This document shows positions 1 to 29,114 of a stretch of DNA of 64,000 nt, piece by piece. Where the stretch lies: NCBI GenBank assembly GCA_017431345.1, contig JAFRLH010000059.1:1-64000 (forward strand), written 5' to 3'. The number at the start of each line of letters is the position of its first letter. Within the stretch, counting starts at the first letter, position 1. The position numbers and the translations under genes are program-made. The DNA comes from Lachnospiraceae bacterium. GTDB lineage: Bacteria; Bacillota; Clostridia; Lachnospirales; Lachnospiraceae. A model generated the notes under the pieces. The model searched no databases. It was not told the DNA's origin and worked only from the letters and a program-made list of their open reading frames with translations.

Positions 1-318
1 AGTAACACCAGCACCATCAATACCATCAGCGATTGTTGTAGATGCCTCGTCGCCATCAGACTGCCATTTTGCCTGTGTCTGTTTAGGATGTACAGTTATA
101 GCTTCAGCCTGACCTTCTTCAGTGCCATCCCAGGTGAGGATAGCTGTCATCTGCTCGGCATATGCGCTGCGCAGATTTGCCTTATCTGTTGCCTCACGGC
201 TCTTTTCCAGCTGGCTTGTGAACACCGGAATTGCAATGGCTACCAGTACAGCGATGATCGCTACAACGATCAGCAGTTCAGCGAGTGTGAATCCCTTTTT
301 GTTTCTGATTCTTTCCAT
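1..318 (-). CDS. pilA: Major type IV pilin (PilA-like), partial
   Basis: The gene starts with ATG at 318 behind a strong GGAGGA site and leaves the window at position 1, so only the first 106 residues are visible. The protein begins MERIRNKKG followed by FTLAELLIVVAIIAVL. This is a class III prepilin signal: a short basic leader, cleavage after Gly, Phe at +1, Glu at +5 and a hydrophobic N-terminal helix. PilD would cut and N-methylate it before assembly into the fibre. It is the last gene of the T4P locus and has its own promoter and long leader, which suits a pilin needed in large amounts. Calling it the major pilin is inferred from position and promoter; it could be a minor one. Confidence 0.85.
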   Translation of the reverse strand, partial: MERIRNKKGFTLAELLIVVAIIAVLVAIAIPVFTSQLEKSREATDKANLRSAYAEQMTAILTWDGTEEGQAEAITVHPKQTQAKWQSDGDEASTTIADGIDGAGVT

Positions 319-474
319 TTTTTGTCCTCCTGTAATACATGTATTTTTATGGTTCCGGATGAAGCTCGGCCGAATGAACATCCGGACCCATCCAGGTTTT
401 ATTTTCTGGCTGCCGGGAACAGCCGGTTTCTTTTTTTCTCGGGGCTGTTTCCTTAACCTTATGCCCCTATTATA
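319..474 (-). promoter_or_regulatory. pilA promoter with structured leader
   Basis: An extended -10 (TGC then TATAAT, read on the minus strand at 469-474) lies between pilO and pilA. No good -35 is seen. The leader is about 145 nt. It contains a GGCTG/CAGCC hairpin and, close to the ribosome site, a stem of TCCGGATG with CATCCGGA (354-386). The layout suggests separate, strong pilA transcription and an mRNA-stabilising leader. It does not match a c-di-GMP riboswitch that I recognise. Confidence 0.6.
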
Positions 475-529
475 GCACCTCTACGTCCAACGAACCGTCA
501 TTTAAAAACATTTTTTCAAAAAAGTATAT

Positions 530-1833: not shown

Positions 1834-1850
1834 TTGCTCTACCTCCCTGA

Positions 1851-2882: not shown

Positions 2883-2894
2883 TGTCAAACTCCC

Positions 2895-3686
2895 TTACAA
2901 CAGTCCCATATACCAGTTTATCAGCGGATCCCCGAACAACAGTACCAGCGCTGCGGCTCCGGCGATCCATGGACCAAACGGAAATGCTTTTCCTTCTCCC
3001 CCGTTCCCTGACCGCAGCTTTGCGTAGAGCAGGCCGGCAGCACAAGCCAGGATCAGAGTAAACAGCGTTCCTGCAGGTCCGAGATACAGTCCGATTACGA
3101 AGAACAGTTTTATGTCTCCTCCCCCGAGGGATTCTCTTCCGAGCATCTTATCGAGGATCAGGGAGACCAGCAGAAGTCCGCCTCCGCAGACAACTGCTGC
3201 TATAATACAGGGTACAGCGTCTCTGAAACCGTCAAACACGGCGAAAGATGTACCGAGCCAGGCAAGGATGGAAATGATATGACATCCGTCCGGGATCACC
3301 ATGTCTTCCAGGTCTGTCAGTGTAAGCAGAAACAGGCAGCAGAGGAAGATATAATTCCGCAGGCACAGGACCGTCAGATCAAATTTCAGCAGGCAGGCGA
3401 CAGAGACCGCCGCGAAGATCAGTTCGGTCAGCGGATACCGCGCCGGGATCTTCTCTCCGCAGTAGCGGCATTTGCCTTTCAGGAACAGCCAGCTGAAGAC
3501 CGGAATCAGATCCGGGGCGCCGAGCGCATGTCCGCACGTCGGGCAGTGACTCCTTCCGTTTAAAAAGGATTCCCCGTGCACGATACGCCAGGCCGCGCAG
3601 TTCAGGAAAGAACCGAGGCTGGCACCGAGCGCTGCGGCAAGAATCGTACAGTATATCAATAATGGTGTGTATTCGTAGATGGACAT
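2895..3686 (-). CDS. pilD: Prepilin peptidase / N-methyltransferase (A24A)
   Basis: A polytopic membrane protein of 263 residues. It has the cytoplasmic four-Cys motif (CPTCG ... CRYCG, about residues 48-80) that binds zinc in PilD, the first catalytic aspartate region (LTDLEDMVIPD) and the second one, GGGDIKLFF. It removes the leader of prepilins after Gly and methylates the new N-terminal residue. Its substrates are probably the pilins of this locus (around 318, 10,923 and 11,592). Start ATG at 3686 has GGGAGAGG upstream. Both active-site Asp residues and all four Cys are present, so it should be active. Confidence 0.93.
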   Translation of the reverse strand: MSIYEYTPLLIYCTILAAALGASLGSFLNCAAWRIVHGESFLNGRSHCPTCGHALGAPDLIPVFSWLFLKGKCRYCGEKIPARYPLTELIFAAVSVACLLKFDLTVLCLRNYIFLCCLFLLTLTDLEDMVIPDGCHIISILAWLGTSFAVFDGFRDAVPCIIAAVVCGGGLLLVSLILDKMLGRESLGGGDIKLFFVIGLYLGPAGTLFTLILACAAGLLYAKLRSGNGGEGKAFPFGPWIAGAAALVLLFGDPLINWYMGLL

Positions 3687-3719
3687 TACCTCTCCCGGCG
3701 CTGACGCGGTGCTTACCGG

Positions 3720-4439
3720 TTACTGATAAGCATCGCCGTCCCAGCCATCATTCGAGCGCCAGATGGCGCAGTAATTTTCATCGGCATAGACGAAATAACA
3801 TACCTCGCCGTTCTTTGCCGTACCCATCCCTTTCCGGGCTGTCTTTGCCGAGAATGTGAAATCCCCGGCCGTGCCGTAGTAACAGACAACGCCGTCATAG
3901 CCGTTTGTCGTCTTTGTGCCGCGGTGGATCATTTCCTCCACAGTCACATGCGTACAGACAAGTTTCCGGCCGTTGACTGTGATCTCCAGCGTTTCCGGAT
4001 CGTTCTTTCCGTCCGGGACTGTTTTCTTTCGTTTATCCTCCAGCTTCTGCAGCGCATAGGAAGCGTTCAGCCTGGTGCGTCTTCTGACATCCGGATCATG
4101 CAGGCCGCAGACTGGCTCGAAGATCCCGTTTTTATCCCTGATCAGATAAATGTTGCCATGCACCGGGCAGAGATCCTCTCTCGCGGGCATTACTTCCTCC
4201 AGCGCATCCCTGGCGTCCTGGATGCTTCCCTGCTCAAAGCTGTCCATATATTCTATGATCAGCCCGTCACCGGCGGATTTCATCGCCTGTTCGCAGCCGA
4301 TCCGCTCTGCGCGGTAACGGAACGCTTTCATGGCCGGGATGCCGATGATGAACAGCATGAGGCCGATCAGGATGAGGACAAGCACGACCGTCCGGTTCAC
4401 GGAACCGCGCGTACTGCTGTTATCGTTCATTTTCTGCAT
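3720..4439 (-). CDS. Pilin-like protein with CPxHG motif, no class III leader
   Basis: A protein of 239 residues with a 17-residue cytoplasmic start, one hydrophobic helix (VVLVLILIGLMLFIIGI) and a long polar domain. At about residues 90-115 it has CPVHGNIYLIRD followed by CGLHD. This resembles the CPxGGxY...CSxHG signature of many Firmicute pseudopilins. The Gly-Phe-Thr-Leu-x-Glu cleavage site is missing. It lies between pilC and pilD, 3 nt from pilC. It is probably a membrane-anchored pilin-like accessory or tip protein. I do not recognise a family, and its role is inferred from position. Confidence 0.6.
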   Translation of the reverse strand: MQKMNDNSSTRGSVNRTVVLVLILIGLMLFIIGIPAMKAFRYRAERIGCEQAMKSAGDGLIIEYMDSFEQGSIQDARDALEEVMPAREDLCPVHGNIYLIRDKNGIFEPVCGLHDPDVRRRTRLNASYALQKLEDKRKKTVPDGKNDPETLEITVNGRKLVCTHVTVEEMIHRGTKTTNGYDGVVCYYGTAGDFTFSAKTARKGMGTAKNGEVCYFVYADENYCAIWRSNDGWDGDAYQ

Positions 4440-4442
4440 TCC

Positions 4443-5663
4443 TTACATCCCGTTGTACATGCTGAACATCGCCAGATAGATCGCAACTACGATATATCCC
4501 GCGACGACGCCCATGAAGATCAGCGTCGCCGGCTCCAGTTTCGCAAGCGCGGCTGCTGTCGCCTGTTCCAGTTCCGAATCATAGTAAGCCGCCGTCATCT
4601 CCAGCGTGGATTCCAGTTCCCCGCTCTCCTCGCCGACCGCCGCCATATCATTCATGATCTCCGGGAGGCACGCCGCTTCCTTCAGGCTTCGGCCGAGCGT
4701 ATTGCCGACCTCCAGCTTGGAAGTGATCTTTCCTACTTCCGTACTGATGTAATAGTTGGTCATCGTACGCGAAGTGATCGTGACGGCTTTCGTCATCGGC
4801 AGACCGGCGCCAAGCATCATCGCCATCGTGTTCGTGAACTGGCTGGCGGCACTGAGGATATTGATATTCCCGAGCACCGGCAGTTTCAGCATCAGCTTTG
4901 CAAGCTTCAGCCTGCCTTCCTCCGTATTGCCGTACAGCTTCACGGCAATCACGACCGCCGCGATAATGCCTACAATGTAATACCAGCTGTTCCGGAAAAA
5001 GTTCGAGATGACGATCAACGACATCGTGATTGCCGGCAGTTCTGAGCCCTGTTCATCAAAGATCGCCGTAAAGGTCGGTACAACTTTGACCATCAGGACG
5101 ATGACCACCACAACTGCGAGCAAAAGTACGAACGTCGGATAGATCATGGCGCCGCGGACTTTTCCCTTCAGCTTCATCTGTTTTGTATAATGTTCGCTCA
5201 CTGATTCGAATGCCGTTTCCAGATTGCCGGCTTCCTCTCCGGCATGGATCGTCTCCAGGAACGTCAGCGGCAGGATCTTCTTCCCGCGTTCCGCGAAGCT
5301 GGCTGACAGCGACCGGCCGGCCTCCACGTCCTCCGCGACCTGTTCCAGGATGTTCTTCAGCGGCTTGTCGGACATTTTATCTCCGATCAGATGCACCGTC
5401 CTGGCGATCGGAATACCGGCTTTCAGGATGACGGCGAACTGGCTGCACATCAGCGTAAAGGCCTTGTCATTGAGCTTCTTTCCGCCGATATCCCCTGTCA
5501 GGAATTCCGCTGCTTTGCTCTTCGTGCCCGCCAGCTGCAGCTGCAGCACGATCGGATAGCTTTCCTTTAATCTGGAAGCTGCATCCATCTCGTTGAAGCC
5601 TTCGATCAGTCCGGAGACCCGTTTACCGTCTCTGGAAACAGCTGTATATTTGTATTTTTCCAT
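4443..5663 (-). CDS. pilC: PilC/GspF-type platform membrane protein
   Basis: A protein of 406 residues with the duplicated T2SS-F architecture. Two cytoplasmic helical domains (around residues 65-190 and 270-390) alternate with three membrane helices, the first being GAMIYPTFVLLLAVVVVIVLM. The motifs FAERG...PLTFLETIHAGEEAGNLE and, in the second half, GEESGELESTL are typical. PilC sits under the growing fibre and is turned by PilB or PilT to add or remove pilins. It follows pilT by 16 nt. Length and both halves are intact. Confidence 0.93.
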   Translation of the reverse strand: MEKYKYTAVSRDGKRVSGLIEGFNEMDAASRLKESYPIVLQLQLAGTKSKAAEFLTGDIGGKKLNDKAFTLMCSQFAVILKAGIPIARTVHLIGDKMSDKPLKNILEQVAEDVEAGRSLSASFAERGKKILPLTFLETIHAGEEAGNLETAFESVSEHYTKQMKLKGKVRGAMIYPTFVLLLAVVVVIVLMVKVVPTFTAIFDEQGSELPAITMSLIVISNFFRNSWYYIVGIIAAVVIAVKLYGNTEEGRLKLAKLMLKLPVLGNINILSAASQFTNTMAMMLGAGLPMTKAVTITSRTMTNYYISTEVGKITSKLEVGNTLGRSLKEAACLPEIMNDMAAVGEESGELESTLEMTAAYYDSELEQATAAALAKLEPATLIFMGVVAGYIVVAIYLAMFSMYNGM

Positions 5664-5679
5664 GCGAACAGCCCTTTCC

Positions 5680-6729
5680 TTACGCGTTCTTTCTTACATA
5701 CTCCTGCTCATGGGCATAATGCAGCGCATCTTCCTTTGAGATCAGCCGGCTGCGGACGAGCCGCACCAGCGCCTGATCCATCGTCTGTCCGCCGATCGCG
5801 GCACTGGTCGCGATGGCGTTCACGATCTGCGGCGTGTTGCCGTTGCGGATCAGGTTCCGGATGGCGTCCGTGACGACCATCATTTCACAGGCAAGCGCTC
5901 TCCCGCCGCCTCTCTTCGGGATCAGCTGCTGGGTAATGACCGCCTGCAGGCACATCGAAAGCTGCAGCCGGATCTGGGTCTGCATGCCCTCCGGGAATAC
6001 CTGCACGATACGGTCGACCGCATCAGAGGCGCTGCCGGTATGCAGCGTGCCAAAGACCAGATGGCCTGTCTCAGCGGCTGTGATCGCCGTCTCGATCGTC
6101 TCCCGGTCACGCATTTCACCGATCAGGATCACGTTCGGATCCTCTCGCAGGCTGGCGCGAAGCCCGGCCGCGAAGCTCATCGTATCCTTTCCGACTTCGC
6201 GCTGGTTGATCGCCGCCTTGTCCGGTACATAGATATATTCCACCGGATCCTCCAGCGTCACGATATGACAGCATTTCGTATGATTGATATGATCCAGGAT
6301 CGCCGCGAGCGTCGTCGATTTACCGGAACCGGTCTCACCGGTGATCAGCACAATGCCTTTGTGCAGATCCGGGAGCATCAGCGCTGCCGGGGGAAGCCCC
6401 AGCGTGTCCAGCTTCGGGATCCGGTCGGACAGGATACGCAGTGCGACCGAAGGCATGCCCTGCTGCCGGAAGATATGGATACGGCAGCGGTTCCCGGCGA
6501 AGGTCGCGGCGGAGTCCAGTTCTCCCGTGCGTTCATATTCCTGCCAGGCCGGCTCGGTGCCGGCAAGGGATTTCGCGTACTGAATGCAGTCATGGGCCGA
6601 AAGCGGCTCGTCTGACATGTTTTCCAGCATGCCGTTCCGACGGTATTTCGGCGGCAGATTGTAGATCAGATGAATGTCCGAGGCGCCGTCTCCGCGTGCC
6701 TGCAGGACGAGTTCTTCTATAGTAAGCAT
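5680..6729 (-). CDS. pilT: PilT retraction ATPase
   Basis: A protein of 349 residues with an N-terminal PAS-like domain and a C-terminal RecA-like domain. Visible motifs are Walker A GETGSGKSTT (about 127-136), the Asp box EDPNVILIGEMRD, Walker B and the His box GHLVFGTLHT. PilT is the hexameric motor that depolymerises the fibre, which gives twitching or DNA uptake. Its presence shows the pilus is built to retract. Start ATG at 6729 has AGGAG upstream. It lies after pilB, separated by a copy of the dispersed ~58 bp repeat. Confidence 0.93.
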   Translation of the reverse strand: MLTIEELVLQARGDGASDIHLIYNLPPKYRRNGMLENMSDEPLSAHDCIQYAKSLAGTEPAWQEYERTGELDSAATFAGNRCRIHIFRQQGMPSVALRILSDRIPKLDTLGLPPAALMLPDLHKGIVLITGETGSGKSTTLAAILDHINHTKCCHIVTLEDPVEYIYVPDKAAINQREVGKDTMSFAAGLRASLREDPNVILIGEMRDRETIETAITAAETGHLVFGTLHTGSASDAVDRIVQVFPEGMQTQIRLQLSMCLQAVITQQLIPKRGGGRALACEMMVVTDAIRNLIRNGNTPQIVNAIATSAAIGGQTMDQALVRLVRSRLISKEDALHYAHEQEYVRKNA

Positions 6730-6758
6730 ATCAATCTCCTGTGTGTATATCAGTTACA

Positions 6759-6814
6759 GTAAAACCGAAGACTTTACGGCGAGGATCCTTCGTCGCAGGC
6801 TCCTCTGGATGACA
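6759..6814 (+). repeat. Dispersed ~58 bp repeat, copy 1
   Basis: The unit runs from GTAAAACCG through the conserved core GGATCCTTCGTCGC to CTGGATGACA. It lies in the gap between pilB and pilT. The four other full copies are at 11,698, 12,189, 13,133 and 50,321. All four copies inside the pilus locus have the same orientation. Confidence 0.85.
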
Positions 6815-6836: not shown

Positions 6837-8588
6837 TTAAATATCCTCATAGACGACACGCAGCACTTCCTCCGCTGTCGTCACGCCTTCCTCCACCAGC
6901 TTCAGCGCATTTTCCTTCAGGGACACGAATCCGCTCGACGGATCGGTCAGCATCGCCTCGATCGCTTCTCTTCCCTTCCGCGCAGCGATCATTCTCCTTA
7001 CCTTGATCCCCAGCGGGAAGATCTCGAATACGCCGGTCCTGCCGCGGTACCCTGTATCAAAGCATTCCGGGCATCCGCAGCCCTTGTAAAACACTCTGTC
7101 CGGTCTGTACGGAAGTCCCAGTTCATCCTGCTCTTCCTCATCCGGGGTATACGCCTGCTTGCAGTTCGGGCAGATCTTTCTCACCAGACGCTGGGAGAAC
7201 ACGCCCTTCAGCGCGCTGGCTACCAGATACGGCTCCACACCCATATCTGTCAGACGTTCGATCGTGCCGACCGCATCGCTTGTATGGATCGTTGACAGAA
7301 CTACATGGCCGGTAATGGCGGAACGCATTGCGATCTCTGCCGTCTCACCGTCACGGATCTCACCGATACCGATGATATCCGGGTCCTGACGCAGGATGGC
7401 GCGCAGGCCTTTCGCGAACGTCATGCCGGTCTTTTCATTGATCTGTACCTGGTTCACGCCGTCAATATTGTATTCCACCGGATCTTCCAGCGTGACCAGA
7501 TTCACGTCGCGCTTGTTCAGATCGTGGATCATCGAATACATCGTCGTGGACTTACCGCTTCCGGTAGGACCGACGATCAGAATCACGCCGCTCTTGATCC
7601 TGATCAGCTTCTCATATTTATGAATGTCGTCACCGCGCAGCCCGATGGAATCCCGGTTCAGGCGCATGCCGGATTTATCCAGAAGTCTGGCGACGATCTT
7701 CTCTCCGTAGACTGTCGGCAGGGTAGAGATACGGAGATCAATATCCTTGTCCCGCACTTTTACATTGAACCGGCCGTCCTGAGGCACACGGCGCTCCGTG
7801 ATGTCCATATTCGACATGACTTTGATACGCGAGATCACGGCAGCCTGCAGCTCCCGCGGTACGGTCAGGATATCCCGCAGCAATCCGTCGATTCTCATGC
7901 GGACGGAAAGCTCTTCCTCCCGCGGTTCCATATGGATATCGCTCGCGTGTTCCGTCACGGCACGCTCAATGATCGCGTTCACCAGACGGATCGCCGGCGC
8001 CTGGGCAGCGGATTCCTCTCCCACGATACTGGAAGTAAATGCTGCATCCGCCAGCTCGCCGGATCCCTCTCCGGAGAGCGCGGCTTCGCGCTTCATCTCT
8101 TCGATGGCTTTCGCTGCGCCTTCATTTCCGTACAGGATCTGGATCGCTCTTTCCACGGCTGATGACATCGCCACCATGGGAACGACTCTGCGGCGCACCG
8201 CTTTTCTCACTTCCTCGATCGCGTAGAAGTTCAGCGGATCGCTCATCGCCAGATACAGCTCATCCCGGAAAACGCGGACCGGAACGACCTGGTACTGCTT
8301 CGCGATATTCTTTGGAACGACCTGGGCCAGCTCCGTAGGAATATTGATCTTTCCGAGATCGACGAACTCGATGCCCAGCTGCATCTGCAGGGCTTCGATC
8401 AGATCGCTTTCCGTAATGATACCGTGATCCTGCAGGACCTCGCCGAGACGTTTTCCGGAACCTTTCTGAAGAGCCAATCCTTCTGCAAGCTGCTCTTCAT
8501 TGATCAGACCGGATGCAAGCAGGAGATCACCGAGACGCTGGGGTCTTCTGTTCTGTTTTTTTGAGGTTGTATTACTTGTCGGTGCCAA
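6837..8588 (-). CDS. pilB: PilB extension ATPase with MshEN c-di-GMP-binding type N-domain
   Basis: A protein of 583 residues. The N-terminus carries two successive RLGxxL...GxI/L...L..L..Q motifs (RLGDLLLASGLINEEQL and RLGEVLQDHGIITESDL), the signature of MshEN domains that bind cyclic di-GMP in other PilB/MshE proteins. The C-terminal half has Walker A GPTGSGKSTT, the Asp box RQDPDIIGIGEIRD, the His box GHVVLSTIHT and a four-Cys zinc site (CPNC ... CGCPEC). It powers pilin addition. The best start is TTG at 8588 with GAGGG upstream; no ATG lies nearby. Confidence 0.93.
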   Translation of the reverse strand: MAPTSNTTSKKQNRRPQRLGDLLLASGLINEEQLAEGLALQKGSGKRLGEVLQDHGIITESDLIEALQMQLGIEFVDLGKINIPTELAQVVPKNIAKQYQVVPVRVFRDELYLAMSDPLNFYAIEEVRKAVRRRVVPMVAMSSAVERAIQILYGNEGAAKAIEEMKREAALSGEGSGELADAAFTSSIVGEESAAQAPAIRLVNAIIERAVTEHASDIHMEPREEELSVRMRIDGLLRDILTVPRELQAAVISRIKVMSNMDITERRVPQDGRFNVKVRDKDIDLRISTLPTVYGEKIVARLLDKSGMRLNRDSIGLRGDDIHKYEKLIRIKSGVILIVGPTGSGKSTTMYSMIHDLNKRDVNLVTLEDPVEYNIDGVNQVQINEKTGMTFAKGLRAILRQDPDIIGIGEIRDGETAEIAMRSAITGHVVLSTIHTSDAVGTIERLTDMGVEPYLVASALKGVFSQRLVRKICPNCKQAYTPDEEEQDELGLPYRPDRVFYKGCGCPECFDTGYRGRTGVFEIFPLGIKVRRMIAARKGREAIEAMLTDPSSGFVSLKENALKLVEEGVTTAEEVLRVVYEDI

Positions 8589-11010: not shown

Positions 11011-11592
11011 TCATGAAATCACGCGAATCGACACAGTTGGTCTGGCAGTCAGCACAGCACCTGTCGATATCCTGATGACCTTAAGATTTGTAAAAGTGAT
11101 GATCCCGCTGTTTTCATCAAAGGAGACCTTATCATAAGTCACATAAAGGTCCGCTGTGGACGCTTCCTTTGAGATCAGCTGTCTGGATTCCGGCGCATTT
11201 GATTTTGGTTTGCCGTCCGGATCGATGTAGCGCTGCAGCATGACTGCAGGCTGCTCCCCCTCCGTATCTGTATAGATTTTTGAGAAAACGCCGGTCTGCC
11301 GGTTCAGATAAAGCAGTGTCTTTTCATTTGCATTTCCGCTGTTGTCTTTGTCATTCGCGATCTCTGCAGCGGTTCCGAGTTCGTTCCGCAAAGCCGTGAT
11401 GGTGGTCGAAAGCAGGACTTCGGCATTCGAAGCGATGACCACTTTTTCATAAGCGCTTCGGGCAGCCGGGATGCCGGCGACAACGATCGAGGATGCCATG
11501 AGCATGATCAGGATCGCAGTCAGGGCTTCCACAAGGGTGAAGCCGCGGCTGCCGCGTATTTTCTTTTTGATGGTACTGATCTGCTCTTTCAT
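11011..11592 (-). CDS. Minor prepilin (class III signal)
   Basis: A protein of 193 residues with a basic leader ending RGSRG, then FTLVEALTAILIMLMASSIV. Cleavage site, Glu at +5 and hydrophobic helix are all present. The globular part is Ala/Thr rich with no cysteines. It is probably a minor pilin or pseudopilin (GspH/PilV-like position) of the initiating complex. Start ATG at 11,592 follows CAGGAAG. It stands 87 nt before the 755-residue prepilin. Confidence 0.85.
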   Translation of the reverse strand: MKEQISTIKKKIRGSRGFTLVEALTAILIMLMASSIVVAGIPAARSAYEKVVIASNAEVLLSTTITALRNELGTAAEIANDKDNSGNANEKTLLYLNRQTGVFSKIYTDTEGEQPAVMLQRYIDPDGKPKSNAPESRQLISKEASTADLYVTYDKVSFDENSGIITFTNLKVIRISTGAVLTARPTVSIRVIS

Positions 11593-11697: not shown

Positions 11698-11756
11698 GTA
11701 AAACCGCAGTCTTTACGGCGAGGATCCTTCGTCGCTGCAGCTCCTCAGGATGACAG
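11698..11756 (+). repeat. Dispersed ~58 bp repeat, copy 2
   Basis: This copy extends from GTAAAACCGCAGTC to CTCAGGATGACAG, in the gap between two minor pilin genes. It shares the GGATCCTTCGTCGC core with copies 1 and 3. Confidence 0.85.
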
Positions 11757-11776: not shown

Positions 11777-12169
11777 TCAATCCCCGGCATCCGGCTTATA
11801 CGAGTACACCGGATAACGGGTAAACTCTTCATTTCCATAATAAACAATAGTATACGTCTGCGCGTCCAATCCGCCGGAAACAGCTGTGATGGTGACCGTC
11901 CCTTCCGTTCCTGCTCCGGACATCTTTATCACGCCGTTTTCCTGTTCACTGGCAGCATAATAGCTGTCCATCTTCGTTCTGCTCTTCTCCACGAGATTCG
12001 CTGACGCGGTGATCGCGCCGGCCAGCATGGTCAGCGCCAGGGAGGAGATCAGAAGCGCAACGAGGGTCTCGGAGATCGTCTCGCCTTTATTGCTTTTCAG
12101 TTTTCCGGCTGCGGACTTCTTCTCATCCTGCATCATTTCCTGACTCATCCCTTTCTCTTTCATAATCAT
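11777..12169 (-). CDS. Minor pilin-like protein
   Basis: About 130 residues. After a basic stretch (KLKSNKG) comes ETISETLVALLISSLALTMLAGAI, a pilin-like helix with Glu at +5 but with Glu instead of Phe at +1. It is therefore a non-canonical but plausible PilD substrate. The rest is a short beta-rich domain. Several starts are possible: GTG at 12,181, ATG at 12,169 or ATG at 12,148; none has a clear ribosome site. It is flanked on both sides by copies of the dispersed repeat. Confidence 0.7.
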   Translation of the reverse strand: MIMKEKGMSQEMMQDEKKSAAGKLKSNKGETISETLVALLISSLALTMLAGAITASANLVEKSRTKMDSYYAASEQENGVIKMSGAGTEGTVTITAVSGGLDAQTYTIVYYGNEEFTRYPVYSYKPDAGD

Positions 12170-12188
12170 GCTGTATCTCACGGATCCG

Positions 12189-12247
12189 GTAAAACCGCAG
12201 TCTCTACGGCGTGGATCCTTCGTCGCTTTCGCTCCTCAGGATGACAG
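12189..12247 (+). repeat. Dispersed ~58 bp repeat, copy 3
   Basis: A full copy between two pilin-like genes. A partial copy of its right end (CTCCTCTGGATGACAG) follows directly at about 12,255-12,271, which points to repeated insertion or recombination at this gap. Confidence 0.85.
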
Positions 12248-13093: not shown

Positions 13094-13132
13094 GCACTCC
13101 ACCTCCTTTCCTGTATATTCATACTCCTGCAG

Positions 13133-13191
13133 TAAAACCGCTGTCTTCACGCGGTGGATCCTTCGCCGCTTACGCTCCTCTGGATGACAGA
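13133..13191 (+). repeat. Dispersed ~58 bp repeat, copy 4
   Basis: A copy immediately 3' of the giant adhesin stop codon (31 bp away) and just before the next gene. Read on the other strand it can be translated as HPEERKRRRIHRV, which falsely lengthens the downstream ORF. Confidence 0.85.
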
Positions 13192-13221
13192 CAGACTGCT
13201 CTCCTGAGGACATTTTTACTT

Positions 13222-22200: not shown

Positions 22201-25200
22201 CGTCAACGTAATATCATACCCTGCAGGGATCTCCACTGTATCCGCAGCCGGCATCAGGTAATCCGCCAGCATTTCGATCTCGGCTGTACGGGACGTGATG
22301 TTGTCTTCCACATATTCCACAGCGCTGCGAAGCGTATAGAAAATGTGATCCGTCCCGTTATCATTGATCTTGCAAAGCTGTTTGGGGCTGTTGATCAGCT
22401 CCACTCTCGTTTCCGCGTTCAGCGCCAGCGAAACCTGCTGGTTGTCGATGACTTCCGCAGGGGTTGTCTGGCTGCCTGTGATGGAACCGGTCTTTGCGGT
22501 CAGATCATAGTTCTCGTTTTCAGACTCGGTGATCGTATAGTTTCCGCGGGGCATTCCCTTCAGGCGGATCCTGGTACCGTCCTCTACGGTAAACGTGATC
22601 GTACCGGGGTTCGTACCCTCTGCCGGCACGGCTTCCACGGATGCGTTTTCCGCGCCTTCCGCTTCATAGCTGTCTGCGGTGATCGACCCGGAACTGATCG
22701 TGACCGTATAGGAAGAATCCGCAAAGATCGCATTCTCCCCGCTTGCGGACATATCCACCGTCTTGCTGATCTGCAGATCATACCCTCTTTCAGTGTAGAC
22801 CGCGTAGATACACGGCGTATCTTCGACCGGCAGATTTCTCCAGCTTTCGCCGTCAAAACTGTACTGGAGCGCATTCTCCCGGACTCTCAGCTTCATGACG
22901 AGCTGATCGCTGATGCCGTCAAGTGCATCCAGTGTGTCTGCATCAAGATTTCCTGCGCCAAGGCGCGTATATTTCAGATACCGTTCATAGATCCCGTCAT
23001 CCAGGATCGGCGGCATACGGAAATTCTTTCCGGACTGGCTGATCGTAAAATCATTTCCGACAAGGGCGAACGGTTCCCGCTGTTTCACGGTCTTCCCGTT
23101 CAGCGTCAGGGAAGCATGATTATAAGTGACCGCTTCCGCAGCACCGATCTCCCCTGTCTGCGGATCAGGCAGGGAACCGGTGATGTCTGTCAGATTTCCG
23201 GCCGCATCCGCTTTTACATACCGGATCAAGGGCATAGGATAATACAGGTAGTAAAGCGTGTTTCCATCAAGCTCCCCTGCCGTATTTCCATCTGCATCTT
23301 TCAGAACAAGTTTGCAGAGATTACTGTCCGTTCGTTCGTAAGAAATGGAAGCAATATCCATGCCGGCAACCGTAACCGCGTCTCCGTTGTTCTCTGCGCC
23401 GGAACCATACAGAACGGTCCCGAACGAATACGTATCCGTATCTCCTGTAAAAATGGCGTCTTCCGGAAGCTTCTCCGTAAACACGGCGGACTCTCCGAGT
23501 GCAAGATCAAAGCTGTACGCGGTTTCTGCGCTGCTTCTCAGGGAATCCCGCCGGACGATGCCGCCGGTCATGCCATCGTGTTCCGCCATCGCAACATGGA
23601 CTTCCACCCTGAAGGCCTTATGGGTGTTTGTAAAGACCGTCTCCCGTACACCGCCGCTGCCGTCTGCCGTATAAGTGAACTGATACGGTTCGGCGTTCTG
23701 CAGGACACCGTCGATCTCTGTGGAGAATGCCGCGTCCGGAGTCTGGGTGATCGTGACCTTCTGGGCTGTCACTTCTGCAGTGACCGTGCGTGTCGCATCA
23801 TTTTCTCCCGCATCGATCGTTTCTGTTCTTCCGTAAAACAGAACAACGGAATCCGCCTCATTGTCTTTCAGCTGTACAGAATAACGGATGATCTCCACCG
23901 GTGTTTCTGTTGTCACCAAGGGATCCCCGTCATTGACCCACTCTCCGTCGGTCAATCTCTGTTTTTGCACGGAAGTCTCTTTCGTTTCGGCAACAACGTA
24001 CTCAAAAGCAAATGGCTTTTCCATCAGAGACGCATCGCCGACTGTTTCTTCGTTAAACGTAACGACTGTGGGCTTCTGCGTATAGTAAATCACATACAGC
24101 TCCGGATCATAGCCGCAGTTCGTCCATTCCAAACCGTCTTCGGAATATTCGAATCCCCGCCAGGTATTGCGGACCTGAAGCTGCGGAGATGCCTCCCCGG
24201 CGGAAGAAGCAGAGGTCAGCATATGCAGACCTTCCACACTGTTAAGCACGCTGCCGCCGATCCCGTAGGCATAGCAGGTAAAGCTGCTGCCTTCTACCCA
24301 GTCGAGCGGAGACGCCAGCTTTTCAGCCATGTTATAGGTTCCCAGCGCCGTGTCTGTTGCTGTCGGAGCGGTTCCGGCAGCACTCACATCGCTCAGCTGA
24401 TCATCCTCGTCAATGCTCTTATAGCCGATCGGAAGCGTCTTCTTATTAAAGTATACGAAGTAAACCTCCTTCCCGTCCGCCAATGCGGTATAGGAGGTCT
24501 CCCCTGCATATTTTACACAGACACGCTTTCTGATGCTGTCATATTTCACAGTTGTTACAGCATTGCTTTCGGAAATGCCTTCAAGTGAATCCGACACGGC
24601 AGCGAAAGCGAATTCGTAAACCGCAGGCGCAGTTACATGACTGACTGCTGTCAGTTCGGTTTCCTCTGTGTCGACAGTGATATCGTTGACTGCCCAGTCA
24701 TTGGTTTCCGCCAGGGTCTCCGCCGAAGCATCCACTGCGTGGACTTTCAGCGTGTTCGGTTCACTCCAGCACGCATAAAGATCCAGTGCACCGCTTACAG
24801 GCTGCGAAAAATCATATTCTGCGGATGCGGGCGTCGGATCCGGATCTGTTGTCCAGTACCGGAAGATCTTCCGGCCGGATCCGGTATACTCCGGAATATA
24901 CGCCGGTTCCGTGATTGCTGCACGGATATAAGCGGTCCCGGTATAGGTGTTTGTTTCTTCGTTATATGAATATTCGGGAGCATCCCAGGTGCCGCCCCAG
25001 TTTGCCTCTTCCTCTGTCAGATGATAAGTGACGGTCGTCCGCCATACAGCATACAGCGTCTTCGGCTCCTTGCTGTCAACAATGCACACGCTGCCGGGGG
25101 TTAACAGCTTTGCGTCCGGATCCTTCGGATCATAATTCTGCTGATCGCTCCAGCCGGCAAGGACCGCACCCTCTTTTGCAAAGCCCGTGCCGCTGCTCAA

Positions 25201-28200
25201 CCTGAATCTGGAATTATTGGGAAGACCGGAAACTGCTGCAGTTCCATTGTCAACAACACCGGAAGCCTCCGTTTCCTGCCCGGAGACATCGATCGAAAAT
25301 CCAAAATCAACATCACCGCTTCCAATCGTACCGCCGTTGGCGTCATAGATCACGGATGCTGTTTCCAGTCTGACATAGACTGCATCCAGCCAGATGATAT
25401 CCTTCCCGCCGGAACGCACTGCATCATCCGCGTGCAGCGTCATGCTCTTTCCGGGCAGGAAGATCCTGCCGCCGTCTTCGCCTCTGACCTTCCATCCGAT
25501 AAACGTATAGCTGTCTGCTTTAGCAGAACGTGACAGGACAACGTCGGAATTGTCTGCATATCCTTCCGGAAGCACCGCCTCTTTCGTACCGTCGTCCAGC
25601 CTGCCATCGCCGGCATCATAAGCCAGATAATACGTGCCGGCTTTCTTCCAGCGCAGTTTCAGATAAGTATCATGATCGACCTTTCTGCTGAAATCATAAG
25701 GAACTTCCGTTCCGTCCGCCAGCACCTCATACCATCCGGCATAAGTGTAGACGCCCGGTGCGTATTCAAAGGTGCTGTCTTCCGTCGCTTCACCGGGATC
25801 ACTGGTATACTTCGTCTCACGATCAGTCTCGCTGTGATCCCATTCGTTCCCGGTATAGCCATAGTAAGCACGGTCGTGTTTCACGTAATAATACGTTCCG
25901 GAGCTGGATTCGACATAATCACGGCTCACCTGCGTATACTCCTGCACGGTCTCGCCGTCCCAGGTCTCCCAGAACCAGGTTCCGCCGGTCCCGTTGAAGG
26001 TACCGTAATTCGGATCGATCTGCACCAGGTACCAGTCCGCGCTCCAGCCGGCATAGATCGTCAGATCGTTGTCCGGCATCACATCATAAAGCACTTTCTG
26101 TGCGCTTCCCGTAAAGGCATCATAAGATTCTCTGGTGAAGAAGACTCTGGTGGAACACGCCGGATCCGCATACCAGCCGCTGAAGGAATAGACCTTCTTT
26201 CCGGAAGCGCTCGTCACGGAAGAGACCGGATCTGCGGGGACATAGGTGCCGCCTTCATTTCCCGCAGTCAGGGAACGTTCGTACGGTACCTGGAACGATC
26301 CGTAATCTGTGCTGTCATCTGCAGAATCAGCAAATCGGAGTACATGAAAACTGGCGGAAGGATTATACGCTGTATCATCCCGGTCATAATAAACGTGCAG
26401 CACTGTTCCGCCGTTTTCATCGACGGAAGTGCTCTCCGAGCAGCCTGCATAAACAAAGCCTTCGTACGTTCTGGCTGTATACTCCTCGTCCACGGATACA
26501 ACAGTACCGGGAGCAGCGGTCTTTTCGATTCCTTCCGCAAAATCATACAGCTTTTCCGCCCCTGTACCGGAAGTCTTCTGTTTCCAGATAATGATCCTGT
26601 AAGGAACGCTGTGGTTTCCCCATTTTGCATAGAGCGTGGTATCCGCGCGGAGCATCAGCTTTCTTTCGGAGATATAAACGCCGCCGTCATCCGCATTGCT
26701 GACGAGCACACCGTCAGCACCGGTAATCTGTGAACCGTAATCTACAGTAACATCACTTCCGGAAGAAGACATCATTCCGGTATACCATCCCTGGAAGGTA
26801 TAACCGTCCCACTGCGGCACAGCCAGCGATTCCGGGCCGTCGCCTTCAAACCATTCCGCCGAAGGGATATAGGAGGCACCGGAACCGGCAGGGCCGGTAT
26901 AGAAGCTCAGACGGTGGACCGGTTTGTAAAGCGGATACAGATCGGTCTTTTCCGATACGGTGATACAGCCATTCTCATCCGGGACGATGGGATCAAGTTC
27001 ATTGCCCTGATCATCGGTCTCCGCACCGGGCACAGTGACTTTCGCATATGACCAGGCATAGAATGCCATCCTGCCTTCCCCGCTGCCGGCGTAAACAGTC
27101 TTTACATCATCGATCTTCACCAGTGCTGTCTTCGGATCTTCTTCCCCTGTCAGTTCCCCATACCTTGTGGCTGCCACGGGAAAAACGCCGGATGTGCTGT
27201 CATACTGATCGTGGAATACGACTTCGGCGTACTCCGTGTAAACCGCGTAAAGGTCGACAGCGCCGTCTTCCGTAATCGTAATATGATCAAAATCATACGG
27301 TTCCTCGGCAAGCGTATAGCCGCCGGTTCCGTCGGGATTGCCTTCATACCATCCTGCGAAGATCCGTGTATCTGTGGAAACAGGCTGCGGGACGATCAGT
27401 TCAGAGCCGTCCTTGACAGTCTGGGCATATACAGTATTACCGGCCGAATCCTTAAAGGCAAACTCCGTGTATCCGACTTCCTTATTCCAGACAAAAAACC
27501 TATAGGTGACCCTGTAATTCCCGCTTCCCTCTGCAGGATAAACAGCATATGCTTTTTTATTCTTTTTCACCGCGATTTCGGGAGGCTGCTCTGTAATCGT
27601 CTCTGCTGCAGCGGTTTCCGAATCTGCAGTATCAGCCGTTTCCCCGTCTGCGGTCTCTGTCTCTGATGATCCGGTGGCACCGGCTTCCATCGTCACCATT
27701 TCTTCTTCTGCAGACACAGTATCCCCGGCTTCCATCGTCACCGGTTCCTCTTCTGCAGACACGGCATCCCCGGCTTCCATCGTCACCGGTTCCTCTTCTG
27801 CAGATATAGCATCCCCGGCCTCTGTCATCTCCGGTTCCGTTTCTGTTTCTGCCGCTGCCTGCTCTTCTGCAGTCTCTTCCGCTGCCGCTTCCTCCGTCGG
27901 CTCTTCCTCTTCTGACGGCAGCTGTGCGGACACAACAAGATCCAGAGACGTTCCCTCCGCCTCTGTTTCAAACCAGATCGTATTGTCGGCGGTCGCGGTC
28001 AGACCGTTCTGATTTTCCCAGAACTGAACAAGATCATTTGTATTATACAAATAGGAAAGGCGGTCAGTGTCTGCACTGTCGTCTCTGTATACAACAGCGT
28101 CTGCGGCATACTGCCCGTTGTTCTGTGCGGCGCGTTCTTCATTTTCTTTGAAAGAATAGACCTGTACGGGGATATAGTCGTCGACGATCCTGCTGATCGT

Positions 28201-28989
28201 TTTTCCGGACAGTTCAATATCAAGGGTGCCTTCCGGAATATAAACGTTCCCACCCCCGTCGTAAAAGACAATGCTGATATAGAAAAGAGTCTGCTCCCGG
28301 AAAGTATTTCCTGCCGGGTCATCCGCAAATTCAATGATCTCCGCTTCCGCGGCAGCATCCGCCGGAAACAGGCCGCTCACCTTGACCGACAGCGGGATCT
28401 TCTTTCCGGTTTTTTCCTTCACCGGAACTTCTCTGTTATAGAGTGCCCACAGGAAACGGTCCGCATATGCAAAGACTGCGGTCTGTTTCTTCTTCTTGTA
28501 GAGCACTGTCCTGGAGAGATCTGCTTTTATGGTACGCAGCTCTACGGTGTTCTCCTGTACATCCTCCCCGTCTGATTCATCCCATTCTGTATCGGATTCG
28601 TCTTCGTCTGCATCGAAACTGTCTTCTGCAGGATCTGTTTCTGATCCGGCGCCCTCTTCGTCCGCCGGCGCGAATTCTGTTTCTTCTGCTGTGCTCCACG
28701 AATCGTTTTCTTCCGGAGCCTCCGTTTCGGGGACTGTTTCAGCCGGTGGTTCTTCCTCTGCCGCTTCGGTAACTTCCTCCTCCTGCTGCTCCTCCGGATC
28801 GGAATCGGCATCTTCGTCAGCATCCCCGGCTTCTTCTTCATTTTGTGCAGCAGCGTTCAGCGTTCCCGCCAGCTCTGCGGAGACACCATAAGAAGACGCG
28901 CTCTCCGCACGGGTATATGCGGGACCAGTCAGCGAGACCGCGAGAATAAATACCATAATGAAACTGAGCAGCCGTTTCCAGTGATCCAT
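13222..28989 (-). CDS. Giant secreted modular adhesin, 5255 aa
   Basis: An open frame of 15.8 kb. Residues 1-29 are a Sec signal peptide (LLSFIMVFILAVSLTGPAYT). The modules in order, with approximate residues, are: acidic Glu/Ser-rich linker 45-150 and 350-470; Listeria-Bacteroides (InlB B) repeats with FxGWY motifs 490-1410; FctA/SpaA-like beta domains 1640-2190; then four cassettes, each a cap domain followed by a right-handed beta-helix of GGAVY/GGGIY coils (2200-2860, 3150-4000, 4090-4470, 4645-4885). A FctA-like domain lies at 4507-4640 and two SpaA-like prealbumin domains at 4994-5100 and 5164-5250. The protein ends inside or just after the last SpaA fold, with no LPXTG and no membrane helix. 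No sortase gene is present. It leads the T4P locus, so it may be a pilus-associated adhesin. Function is inferred from the modules. Confidence 0.9.
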   Translation of the reverse strand: MDHWKRLLSFIMVFILAVSLTGPAYTRAESASSYGVSAELAGTLNAAAQNEEEAGDADEDADSDPEEQQEEEVTEAAEEEPPAETVPETEAPEENDSWSTAEETEFAPADEEGAGSETDPAEDSFDADEDESDTEWDESDGEDVQENTVELRTIKADLSRTVLYKKKKQTAVFAYADRFLWALYNREVPVKEKTGKKIPLSVKVSGLFPADAAAEAEIIEFADDPAGNTFREQTLFYISIVFYDGGGNVYIPEGTLDIELSGKTISRIVDDYIPVQVYSFKENEERAAQNNGQYAADAVVYRDDSADTDRLSYLYNTNDLVQFWENQNGLTATADNTIWFETEAEGTSLDLVVSAQLPSEEEEPTEEAAAEETAEEQAAAETETEPEMTEAGDAISAEEEPVTMEAGDAVSAEEEPVTMEAGDTVSAEEEMVTMEAGATGSSETETADGETADTADSETAAAETITEQPPEIAVKKNKKAYAVYPAEGSGNYRVTYRFFVWNKEVGYTEFAFKDSAGNTVYAQTVKDGSELIVPQPVSTDTRIFAGWYEGNPDGTGGYTLAEEPYDFDHITITEDGAVDLYAVYTEYAEVVFHDQYDSTSGVFPVAATRYGELTGEEDPKTALVKIDDVKTVYAGSGEGRMAFYAWSYAKVTVPGAETDDQGNELDPIVPDENGCITVSEKTDLYPLYKPVHRLSFYTGPAGSGASYIPSAEWFEGDGPESLAVPQWDGYTFQGWYTGMMSSSGSDVTVDYGSQITGADGVLVSNADDGGVYISERKLMLRADTTLYAKWGNHSVPYRIIIWKQKTSGTGAEKLYDFAEGIEKTAAPGTVVSVDEEYTARTYEGFVYAGCSESTSVDENGGTVLHVYYDRDDTAYNPSASFHVLRFADSADDSTDYGSFQVPYERSLTAGNEGGTYVPADPVSSVTSASGKKVYSFSGWYADPACSTRVFFTRESYDAFTGSAQKVLYDVMPDNDLTIYAGWSADWYLVQIDPNYGTFNGTGGTWFWETWDGETVQEYTQVSRDYVESSSGTYYYVKHDRAYYGYTGNEWDHSETDRETKYTSDPGEATEDSTFEYAPGVYTYAGWYEVLADGTEVPYDFSRKVDHDTYLKLRWKKAGTYYLAYDAGDGRLDDGTKEAVLPEGYADNSDVVLSRSAKADSYTFIGWKVRGEDGGRIFLPGKSMTLHADDAVRSGGKDIIWLDAVYVRLETASVIYDANGGTIGSGDVDFGFSIDVSGQETEASGVVDNGTAAVSGLPNNSRFRLSSGTGFAKEGAVLAGWSDQQNYDPKDPDAKLLTPGSVCIVDSKEPKTLYAVWRTTVTYHLTEEEANWGGTWDAPEYSYNEETNTYTGTAYIRAAITEPAYIPEYTGSGRKIFRYWTTDPDPTPASAEYDFSQPVSGALDLYACWSEPNTLKVHAVDASAETLAETNDWAVNDITVDTEETELTAVSHVTAPAVYEFAFAAVSDSLEGISESNAVTTVKYDSIRKRVCVKYAGETSYTALADGKEVYFVYFNKKTLPIGYKSIDEDDQLSDVSAAGTAPTATDTALGTYNMAEKLASPLDWVEGSSFTCYAYGIGGSVLNSVEGLHMLTSASSAGEASPQLQVRNTWRGFEYSEDGLEWTNCGYDPELYVIYYTQKPTVVTFNEETVGDASLMEKPFAFEYVVAETKETSVQKQRLTDGEWVNDGDPLVTTETPVEIIRYSVQLKDNEADSVVLFYGRTETIDAGENDATRTVTAEVTAQKVTITQTPDAAFSTEIDGVLQNAEPYQFTYTADGSGGVRETVFTNTHKAFRVEVHVAMAEHDGMTGGIVRRDSLRSSAETAYSFDLALGESAVFTEKLPEDAIFTGDTDTYSFGTVLYGSGAENNGDAVTVAGMDIASISYERTDSNLCKLVLKDADGNTAGELDGNTLYYLYYPMPLIRYVKADAAGNLTDITGSLPDPQTGEIGAAEAVTYNHASLTLNGKTVKQREPFALVGNDFTISQSGKNFRMPPILDDGIYERYLKYTRLGAGNLDADTLDALDGISDQLVMKLRVRENALQYSFDGESWRNLPVEDTPCIYAVYTERGYDLQISKTVDMSASGENAIFADSSYTVTISSGSITADSYEAEGAENASVEAVPAEGTNPGTITFTVEDGTRIRLKGMPRGNYTITESENENYDLTAKTGSITGSQTTPAEVIDNQQVSLALNAETRVELINSPKQLCKINDNGTDHIFYTLRSAVEYVEDNITSRTAEIEMLADYLMPAADTVEIPAGYDITLTTAENGFTGAGTLAVITRTEELADAPMFTNSGALTFKNMILDGASVKASVPVISSTGDLTIGAGTVIRNAVNTGNGGAVNASGGDLTISSGTIRDCQAASGGAVYYTGSGSITVTGNAVLQDNKALTDNGGAIYAAAGTISLSGTSRISGNSAEKGNGGAVYAENAVVNINQNAALENNKAKNGGAVYVQTGTVSISETNGVAPPQIRNNQASVGDGGAIYTGSGSVSVTGGTITSNTAAAGNGGAVYTGSASVSISGNSVISENAAKNGGAVYSASGTVDVTAGTMEENNAAEGAGGAVYAGSGNVRIAGGNLQRNTAGTNGGAVYAGSGNVTVTGGSITNNTAQNDGGAVCTVSGSITVSAPAGGTAPAIARNTATAGNGGAFCTGTGTVSITDAGVTDNRAGGSGGAVYADKGAVTLNNALLHQNTAGENGGALYARSGNVTVSGGSMNGNTANSDGGAVYVGSGTASLSDSSLANNSAESGRGGAVCMDSGNLTLNTVTATGNSAENGAAVFVNIGNATINNGSITGNTASAGGAVGVGSTEARLILNGNVRITGNTLDGAASNVYLDQDDDAVINIDTLGGSAAIGIHVPDAVVNTRSVPGARFAVYTSDTNANKITNDRFPALTVQSDTAAKKLYWSNAIKVEVRYLASYSGGFPPAVTGTSKYTNNSYYPEFHDDAISDLAAELNTKYSLGLTATAVYGGAFREGAAAFDDYVTTLTWNTAESKWQLTKRDGSVVDLEEKKIIIYYAEPAYISIENNTDMPLTISDMKVNNTSVINSATTAGYGMVFAKNGAIRDAMLPVSAADLQLAAGQSVNLLIPGGRNMNYTLDGSFDGTDSSVRVRRGAAGSLVEETASLTGGAFAQLTGRTLNASGTYKIIFGDDKYICKVVDADGEEHPYSKISDAITAIKNTTGANPPYTLKTAKTAVIEMLTDYLLPASDAVVIPQGYDITLTTAAKSGVTYAYTGEGDRAIISRDSENTNSMITSETGNVNSKFSLTNLIIDGKSVRGNSAGGAVRLSFFEVALDTVDFVNVYAQNGGALYIDDWNNSAQGKANSKLTAANCRFSNCNSTLASGNRIGGGAIHFFGNTLIMTDCVFENCNGGDQAGAVFHRVDSNVNSWTTISGCSFTNCSAKAAGGLELDSKTINVSDCTFEHCVATERNGGGFNVYALNSANPAANTNCSITLTKCTFNDCQAYKQNGGGFRSTAVNTTVNGCIFTNTSGAQGGGIALSNTNARKGEIYGCSFDRCTATNQGGGIYAAALELIIGDYTDAESGETAHTEVKNCTSSNDGGGVFQTRNANGSSLSITNAVITGNQTKNNSKNGGGVYTNARTVNVDGTKITDNTCTSQGGGIYAYSYDSLTITDSDISRNNASGNGGGVWFDIDSDTNRAKLVLTVKGSTIDGNTSNGNGGGIYSMAKTVTISASDTKTDEDGNKVRSSVSDNTAKTNGGGIFHKVNIAGSKLTVSDTDIDGNTANSTGTNTVQGGGGIFAGVRELEITNSSISGNTARSHGGGITFEIADDTTRDVMKLTAENCTLDGNTSGGNGGGIYTLAKTVVFRASEDGTAEVSNCTAALSGGGIYQNRNAAGSALTVANAVISGNTSNDTNTGAERGGGGVFANVQTVTVTGSEIRGNNAKGKGGGITAPVNGTAYSLIVDSSKIIDNTSGNQGGGIYTRSQLTLRNGTEITGNRLLTNTAADCAGVYLPNERTLFVGPSDANADTRDTIYVRENHTSAGVASNLRLWDGGTGANQQNNAASTHVYCHLDGEIHVVNANKVGTVFGDAQYANPDGFSDDSAVFKADASTLHGIIDRTDPAGKKIIWAGPPIAKITDGEGNLLYMKANGTAPAIFDRLGTGNDGNNNYSSYSTVAAFNMLCTESPALYTKDGELYTGSTYCIKMLDDYETGADMNVKEVPGRNVIFTTAGKDDKDGYPYVGPGTRATVTRTSQVAPGRSLMNVFGNLTLENIVIDGGSENGITPNGSSRCLYINQASYAYTVILGENCTLQNADTTANGGGVMVNAGNLVIRGGVIRNCKAANGGAVYENTGSVQIEAGNIYQCIATANGAGVYQNNGRFTMSGGTIRGGEAGGSGGGVYIANGKTFTMSGGSITGNNAAQTGGGIAIGGADTRLYFSGKVNIAGNTCDVSSAPGNACNVELNQNTKAVINTNNGGLFAGAYIGVYVSDANNAYTNHGTERKDFGTFVTGDNTTNFYSFVNDRNGLKGGIIENPDPNTIYWIQIFSLQVSKEVVDGASNRADPDEEFSFTVNIRGRATVSGQLHAYQIDSTTGDYGEMVFTSNNIDTATATFTLKAGKTITGVNLSEGLTYEVIENLTGEQAKKYAAMPAEVITSRIGENKGRTDIDPYTSSVTFTNIRPVCKITDHEGNLLYRKITAGGKDYHVPAVYTELTGEEGAFKALEGTFYHGEEITSVSYAVSNGVQIQMLIPSYSLTEAAVLPAAVKGAVTLTTASVSADKFPYQGTGTTATIRRDFAGGSMFTAAGDLTLEKIILDGVKGSYTTDADGGIVTVPDHGKLTIQTGAVLQNAKTEGRGGAVYAAAGGTVVMTGGTINRNESDGNGAGIFLTSGAVLELSGSPSFGGKGTDVGGNITALNGNFRDQTYIGKKNGGKTYEKPRQDIYIEETGTAPASIVLTGDLTAEAGSVWVFAEHLNHYAMMKPFARITADELNGAAYAAFRNAQPDDVTNCGGDSYLSGSTGEKPAYVYWSGGFDISFRKTDGFGNPMAGAVFTLYTDALCNTAYMQGGNPASAESADGTDQFKDKTGETLEKGQVLFESIPAGVYYMKEKAPEGYLNALTMTADGKPVPNVYIVLVGDGAMQDAGSGVLENITEEIMTARTGTGDDKKDSAIFLLDTKTGKALEVPDISSYGILNISKIRRKAILRKTSSTFVTLPGAVFDILRYDRSVLAKDQTAGTAGAFWIGELPFGTYYIHETGVPAGYDDSKKWFELTVDENGAKLSEDSPKAGID
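16990..19170 (-). repeat. Beta-helix repeat array 2 of the giant adhesin
   Basis: More than 20 coils marked by GGGIY/GGGVF-type motifs, with asparagine-rich turns (GNT, DNT). Coil lengths recur in a four-coil order: a short FQTRN/IYQNRN coil, a VYTNA/VFANV coil, an FDI/FEI long-loop coil and a YSMAK/YTLAK coil. This suggests growth by duplication of four-coil blocks. The DNA is still in frame throughout. Confidence 0.75.
20430..22070 (-). repeat. Beta-helix repeat array 1 of the giant adhesin
   Basis: About 18 coils of 24-35 residues, each with a GGAVY-type motif (variants GGAIY, GGAVC, GGAFC, GGALY, GAAVF) and an NTA/NKA turn. The pattern resembles the GGAI/FxxN repeats of chlamydial polymorphic membrane proteins, which fold as right-handed beta-helices. 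Confidence 0.8.
27683..27817 (-). repeat. 45 bp tandem repeat in the giant adhesin
   Basis: Three near-identical 45 bp units, the fourth degraded, encode EPVTMEAGDAVSAEE-type 15-residue units in the acidic linker. Units start at 27,683, 27,728 and 27,773. Such an in-frame repeat can change length by slippage, altering linker length without a frameshift. Confidence 0.85.
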
Positions 28990-29114
28990 ATATCCTGCCC
29001 TTTTCAGACCGGGAAAACCAGCCGGGATTTGTGATTAAAATAACTACCGTCTGTCTGCCTGAATTTTTCAGATGCACAAACAGACAGGCTCAAGCCCATC
29101 TTATGGGAAGTATA
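28990..29114 (-). promoter_or_regulatory. Promoter and leader of the giant adhesin / T4P locus
   Basis: An extended -10 (TGG then TATACT, at 29,109-29,114 on the minus strand) gives a leader of about 110 nt. The leader begins with a CCCAT/ATGGG hairpin and contains an outer CTGTCTG/CAGACAG stem around a CTGA/TCAG stem. The ribosome site (GCAGGA, 5 nt before ATG) is weak. The -35 is poor, so an activator or the extended -10 probably matters. No known riboswitch motif is seen. Confidence 0.55.

Follow-up and report, generated by a model that had tools for sequence, protein, structure and literature searches.

In a bacterium of the family Lachnospiraceae an open reading frame of 5,255 amino acids stands at the head of a set of type IV pilus genes, and its predicted product is a secreted protein that is not itself a pilin. 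The question is what such a protein does beside a pilus. A sequence-only reading of this DNA had suggested that the giant protein may be delivered by the pilus or may work with it. The window analysed (64,000 nucleotides) covers C65:1-64,000, the beginning of a contig of 127,706 bp. It belongs to an assembly of 3.27 Mb in 94 contigs (completeness 96.9, contamination 5.14), which is the query genome, G000, in the comparisons below. The observation is not a chance effect, because in four genomes besides the query homologues of the whole giant, from other assemblies, are neighbours of these minor pilins.

The pilus locus and its boundaries

All genes of the locus are on the minus strand, in the order giant-p310-p134-p193-p755-pilB-pilT-pilC-u239-pilD-pilM-pilN-like-pilO-like-pilA. 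The giant open reading frame (13222-28989) has no internal stop and heads the locus, as had been described. The pilin genes p310, p134, p193 and p755 are followed by pilB (6837-8588, extension ATPase; Pfam T2SSE and MshEN), pilT (5680-6729, retraction ATPase; T2SSE) and pilC (4443-5663, platform protein; T2SSF). Farther downstream are pilD (2895-3686, prepilin peptidase; A24), pilM (1851-2888; PilM_2), a pilN-like gene (1123-1854; placed by position), a pilO-like gene (530-1126; T2SSM below the cut-off) and the major-pilin-like pilA (1-381; N_methyl over the cut-off). Pfam thus bears out the earlier naming of pilB, pilT, pilC, pilD and pilM, but pilD had been misplaced: it is at 3,686-2,895, while 4,439-3,720 is a separate gene of 239 aa (u239), which is kept in relatives and is pilin-like by eye. 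Pfam gives no match for p310, the pilN-like gene or u239. PilB, PilT, PilC, PilD, PilM, PilN, PilO and pilins are encoded together, as in a type IVa pilus locus, with pilN and pilO assigned by position or below the cut-off. The locus had been called complete; all components are present, but pilA is truncated where the contig begins. Outside a full pilus locus, single pilT-like or T2SSE-family genes are found in the query genome (C62) and in G003 (C22), where the gene lies about 7.5 kb downstream of a partial relative of the giant gene.

The giant-pil unit is preceded by pheS-pheT, and an intrinsic terminator of pheT with 15 pairs (29,250-29,218, minus strand, pattern scan) forms its upstream boundary. 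A putative promoter of the unit on the same strand is an extended -10 element (TGG TATACT, with TATACT at 29,114-29,109), noted by inspection only; the pattern scan upstream of the giant lists a site at 29,148-29,120 instead. Position 29,114 of the sequence-only reading is the first base of this TATACT. The probable start of p310 is at 13,093 behind AGGAAAGGAGG, which is M41 of the listed open reading frame, and the giant-p310 gap is therefore 128 nt and not 8 nt. No terminator-like site is seen in this gap by the scan, and its folding is no better than that of shuffled sequence (z -0.70). A strong terminator and a separate promoter at 13,100-13,220 had been named as evidence that would speak against a link; neither a terminator-like nor a promoter-like site is seen there. 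One terminator-like and one promoter-like site of the same strand lie inside the giant 3′ end, and shuffled sequences give like numbers. The giant and the pilin genes may be co-transcribed.

Two other features were seen. An imperfect REP-like element of 30 bases is present in five copies (13157-13190, 12214-12246, 11723-11753, 6784-6812 and 50346-50376; up to 4 edits), all on the minus strand; four of the copies fall between genes of the pilus locus. In addition, pheT of two kinds, 78-79% and 45-50% identical to the window pheT, is found in 5 of 11 genomes of the genus.

The giant protein and the minor pilins

The giant protein has the N-terminus MDHWKRLLSFIMVFILAVSLTGPAYTRAES, with no class III leader and no N_methyl match, and its description as a non-pilin stands. 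A Sec-type signal peptide is predicted at residues about 1-30 (28900-28989), by eye and from a hydrophobicity peak that begins at residue 7; the N-terminus is the single strongly hydrophobic segment of the protein. Residues about 31-470 (27580-28899) form a variable acidic region with 16-25% identity between homologues. Pfam (E 0.01, two overlapping pieces covering the whole protein) shows Listeria-Bacteroides (InlB-type) repeats, Chlamydia-PMP repeats, DUF7601 and SpaA. The InlB-type repeats span residues about 530-1410 (24760-27402, bounds by eye) and are followed by a region conserved among homologues (residues about 1411-2340; 21970-24759; model pLDDT 45, too low for use). PMP-like GGAVY...TGN repeats occur in two stretches (residues about 2341-2850 and 3300-4150), which with the region between them occupy 16540-21969 (Pfam and pattern, bounds by eye). 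DUF7601 is at residues 4511-4643 (15061-15459), and the best SpaA prealbumin-like domain is at residues 5169-5243 (13261-13485); a second SpaA stretch is matched by Pfam and is given here without coordinates. The protein had been described as a beta-helix protein, and the PMP-like repeats are taken as a beta-helix, but the InlB-type repeats, DUF7601 and SpaA make up other parts of it. Against solved structures the C-terminus gives collagen-adhesion-protein matches (best E 6.8e-6). The giant is probably an adhesin, i.e. a "sticky" protein.

Pfam N_methyl is over the cut-off on p755 and PilA and below it on p134 and p193. p134 (11777-12181, G|ETISE) has a weak resemblance to ComGE/XpsI and p193 (11011-11592) a weak resemblance to ComGF, both below curated cut-offs, and these two are regarded as minor pilins. 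p755 (8656-10923) is a modular pilin, by N_methyl and by its alignment to giant modular pilins of sister loci.

p310 (12281-13093) is a minor pilin without Glu5 (G|ASITF), and Glu5 is absent from p310 in all 17 homologues read (cleavage after Gly assumed). From its sequence start and position it appears GspK/PilX/ComGG-like. It resembles these cap pilins in the missing Glu5 and in being encoded with other minor pilins, but differs in that no family model matches it to any useful degree at the thresholds applied. Its predicted model (pLDDT 68.7) has a long N-terminal helix and beta strands. In the available text of PMC10191384, tip complexes are capped by a subunit lacking Glu5; that of PMC9934059 assigns the absence of Glu5 to K and to S. 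sanguinis PilA.

Related loci in other genomes

A search of 98 genomes (E 1e-15) with residues 1-2350 of the giant gives matches in G000 and G003; with the last 876 residues, G000 is matched and, weakly, G021. Among 299 genomes of the family, residues 831-2201 match G000 and G123 (53%), and G278 over the InlB repeats only; at most two candidates were scored per genome, and weak relatives may be missed. A contig scan with an alignment of the giant C-terminal region yields six loci in five genomes: G123, G347 (RUG103), G348 (RGIG3301, goat reticulum), G349 (RGIG5665, sheep duodenum; the same genes appear on two contigs) and G350 (RUG13855). By longest open reading frame these giants have 5,890 aa (G347), 4,945 aa (G348), 7,497 aa (G349) and 5,549 aa (G350); the G123 gene is interrupted by a contig break, with 2,666 and 1,443 aa at the two ends. 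The five whole-length homologues are 48-57% identical to the window giant, with chain lengths of 4,945-7,497 aa where complete. In G347 the stop of the giant falls within a Pro-Thr repeat; beyond it, a different frame contains a Pro-Thr repeat together with some 190 more residues (L126 15387-16313).

A search for the same gene order in other genomes had been proposed. G347 repeats the window order from giant to pilA (giant-p310-p134-p193-p755-pilB-pilT-pilC-u239-pilD-pilM-pilN-pilO-pilA), and the minor-pilin cassette adjoins the giant in four of the five further genomes. Thus the two adjoin in five of six genomes (G000, G123, G347, G348 and G349), with gaps of 55-128 nt except in G347 (0.9 kb). 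The order in G349 is giant-p310-p134-p193-p755. G123 has pilB-pilT-pilC-pilA-u239-pilD-pilM-pilN-pilO-giant and, after a contig break, giant-p310-p134-p193-p755. In G348 the giant is at the other side of the cassette (p310-p134-p193-p755-giant). Giants unlinked from pilus genes had been named as a finding that would speak against the association; this is seen in one of the six genomes, G350, where about 52 kb of one contig separate the giant from p310 and pilB-pilT-pilC are elsewhere, but G350 still has the pilus. A congener, G010 (PilB 94% identical; p755 of 766 aa), is left out of these counts since its contig ends about 45 nt before p310 and the giant slot is missing. G123 also carries a second p193-p755 pair (C41; L123 5540-12532); the copies have diverged and are perhaps alternative pilus tips.

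The giants of G347 and G350 are 79% identical, against 73% for PilB, 47% for p755 and 45% for p310. Since these giants are more alike than the pilus genes of the same genomes, the giant gene has apparently been passed between lineages on its own, apart from the pilus genes. Both are pilus genomes despite this apparent exchange.

Within the sample searched, the giant is restricted to genomes with one pilus clade. This PilB clade (E <= 1e-180) is present in 14 of the 299 family genomes, and two of these 14, one of them the query, have the giant; no giant is found in the remaining 285 (the InlB-only match in G278 is not counted). The Fisher test gives p = 0.002, and 0.044 once the query genome is removed; relatedness is ignored and the value rests on one genome besides the query. 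Four genomes were found by means of the giant alone, and in each of them PilB is 68-82% identical to the window PilB; the chance of this is (14/299)^4, about 5e-6, assuming independence and the same background. Thus all six giant-bearing genomes have the same pilus clade.

None of the six giants shows a C-terminal hydrophobic segment or LPxTG, G123 being judged from the C-terminal part of its split gene. The maximum hydrophobicity over the last 150 residues is 0.79-1.16 in these, in contrast to 2.22 and 3.16 in G003 and G278, the unlinked partial relatives, which have a C-terminal hydrophobic segment and whose genes are away from full pilus loci. The G003 relative, from the same genus, has 2,468 aa, with an APTG motif and the C-terminal hydrophobic segment. 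Its alignment with the giant covers residues 831-2200 (35%), and the pattern shows no beta-helix repeats in it; it is therefore a partial relative and is not accepted as an orthologue.

The length of the p755-type pilin differs with the presence of the giant. In the six giant-bearing genomes it is 755, 782, 833, 731, 830 and 780 aa (797 aa for the second G123 copy). In ten giant-less sister loci it is 2,156 (G187), 2,555 (G177), 2,655 (G301), 2,219 (G075), 2,673 (G281), 4,537 (G036), 1,446 (G341), 855 (G210), 778 (G054) and 670 aa (G255). Seven of the ten thus have modular pilins of giant size (1,446-4,537 aa), and these match p755 at their start. The difference (731-833 aa in 6/6 against 670-4,537 aa) gives p = 0.016 in a one-sided rank test, and 0.0024 without G255, with relatedness ignored; G044, G101, G270 and G010 were left out, the gene or neighbourhood being not found or cut. 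Among the eight of the ten giant-less loci whose pilins were compared with p755, it aligns in seven with the N-terminal 389-709 residues and in G255 over two shorter stretches. The p755-type pilin is directly upstream of p310, i.e. in the slot of the giant, in five of the ten, and the G177 pilin holds an InlB-type repeat similar to that of the giant. A short pilin does not require a giant, because G054 and G210 have short pilins and no giant was found in them. In G255 (L163 8516-14640) the short pilin is followed by a Sec-type unanchored protein of 1,360 aa with InlB-type repeats and beta-helix similarity, possibly a second detached pilus payload.

Modular pilins of 4,537 aa (G036:C21), 3,025 aa (G025, L068 924-10001) and 2,156 aa (G187, L155 11064-17534) were noted. 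The most extreme case by number of extra domains named in the available text of PMC8179133 is a protein of 860 residues.

Known systems and the proposed role of the giant

The closest known parallel for the proposed working is PilC/PilY1, the non-pilin tip adhesin of diderm type IVa pili. As far as the available text of PMC8179133 and PMC13190605 goes, it shares with the giant a large non-pilin build, a variable N-terminus, encoding with minor pilins and lineages some of which probably moved horizontally. The giant likewise is a non-pilin with a Sec-type signal (by eye and hydrophobicity) beside minor pilins (linkage 5/6). It differs in its monoderm host, its size of 5-7.5 thousand residues and its InlB/beta-helix/SpaA build. 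No Pfam match to the PilY1 beta-propeller domain is found in the giant (E 0.01, the two overlapping pieces covering the protein), and for this reason membership of the PilY1 family is rejected. PilY1 caps a minor-pilin tip complex in the portions available of PMC7541494 and PMC10191384. PilC/PilY1 is absent from monoderms according to the accessible part of PMC9934059; homologues of Actinomycetota and Chloroflexota are listed in the PilY1.3/1.5/1.6 lineages in that of PMC13190605.

Modular pilins such as S. sanguinis PilB and PilC (PMC8179133 and PMC9934059, available text) place an adhesive payload on minor pilins of a monoderm pilus, as is proposed for the window, and the sister loci with their giant modular pilins resemble this system. 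The window payload, in contrast, is not fused to a pilin and has a Sec-type signal in place of a class III leader. The giant is rejected as a modular pilin since it has no class III leader with a Glu5 pilin helix and no N_methyl match.

Sortase-anchored adhesins of monoderms also contain InlB, beta-helix and SpaA modules. The module kinds are like those of the giant, but an LPxTG-like motif with a C-terminal hydrophobic segment, as such adhesins have, is found in none of the six giants from pilus genomes. No earlier report of a pilus-linked giant was found in the part of the literature that the search covered.

A functional link between giant and pilus is supported, because the genes are linked in 5/6 genomes, the pilus clade is the same in 6/6, no anchor is found and p755 is short where the giant is present. 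To this extent the earlier suggestion of joint working holds; the giant may also be delivered by the pilus. Most simply the giant could be seen as a detached tip effector. It stands at about an even chance that it is a Sec-exported effector at the tip of a monoderm type IVa pilus, PilC/PilY1-like in working but unrelated. The giant would be exported by Sec and would fold outside the membrane into a long body of InlB-type, beta-helix and SpaA-type modules. Lacking an anchor, it would be held by docking on a minor-pilin complex of p310, p134, p193 and p755, with the Glu5-less p310 as cap. Assembly driven by PilB would push this complex and the giant through the wall, the giant would act as an adhesin at the pilus tip, and retraction by PilT would pull the bound target in. 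Points against this role are the 52 kb between giant and p310 in G350, the short pilins of G054 and G210, where no giant was found, and the additional frame behind the stop in G347.

The giant could instead be co-regulated with the pilus and physically separate from it, as a Sec-secreted matrix or surface adhesin that is made along with pili to serve one lifestyle, stays in place through non-covalent binding to the wall or to glycans and never comes into contact with the pilus. Ordinary surface adhesins also contain InlB, beta-helix and SpaA modules, the G350 giant is 52 kb away from p310, and the partial relative in G003 stands alone with its own C-terminal hydrophobic segment. Such a separate adhesin is nevertheless rather unlikely: in five of six genomes the giant adjoins the minor pilins, on either side, and not one fixed core gene, and its presence is inversely related to pilin length. 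It is improbable that the minor pilins and pilus work as a piston, like a type II pseudopilus, which threads the giant of roughly 0.5 MDa through the wall and then releases it. The lack of an anchor in the six giants would fit release, and PilY1.3 has been suggested as an analogue of T2SS substrates (PMC7541494, available text), but PilT adjoins PilB, as expected of a retracting pilus. Moreover, other giant secreted proteins pass monoderm walls without pili. The mere insertion of a giant gene near a pilus locus, to which the anomalous likeness of the G347 and G350 giants might point as a sign of gene moves, is already disfavoured and very improbable, since the giant adjoins this cassette again in genomes whose PilB is 68-82% identical to that of the window, and the four genomes found by the giant alone all carry the pilus.

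Starting from the detached tip effector, a wider proposal is put forward tentatively. Monoderm gut bacteria may have evolved a non-pilin type IV pilus tip effector independently of PilC/PilY1. Perhaps a giant modular pilin was split in two: p755 would be what is left as a short pilin for docking, and the other part would have become an adhesin of 5-7.5 thousand residues, exported by Sec without an anchor and exchanged between lineages.

Tip effectors that are not pilins have been described for diderm pili, and such a job is hardly known from single-membrane bacteria. The giant, a conserved secreted protein encoded next to minor pilins and lacking a recognisable anchor, makes a concrete candidate for a monoderm tip effector, and it suggests that a fused pilus effector and a detached one can take each other's place. 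Other gut bacteria show the pairing as well, which suggests that the pilus carries or exports the giant. The giant may help to explain how commensal Lachnospiraceae and bacteria of the ruminant gut grip fibre or mucus.
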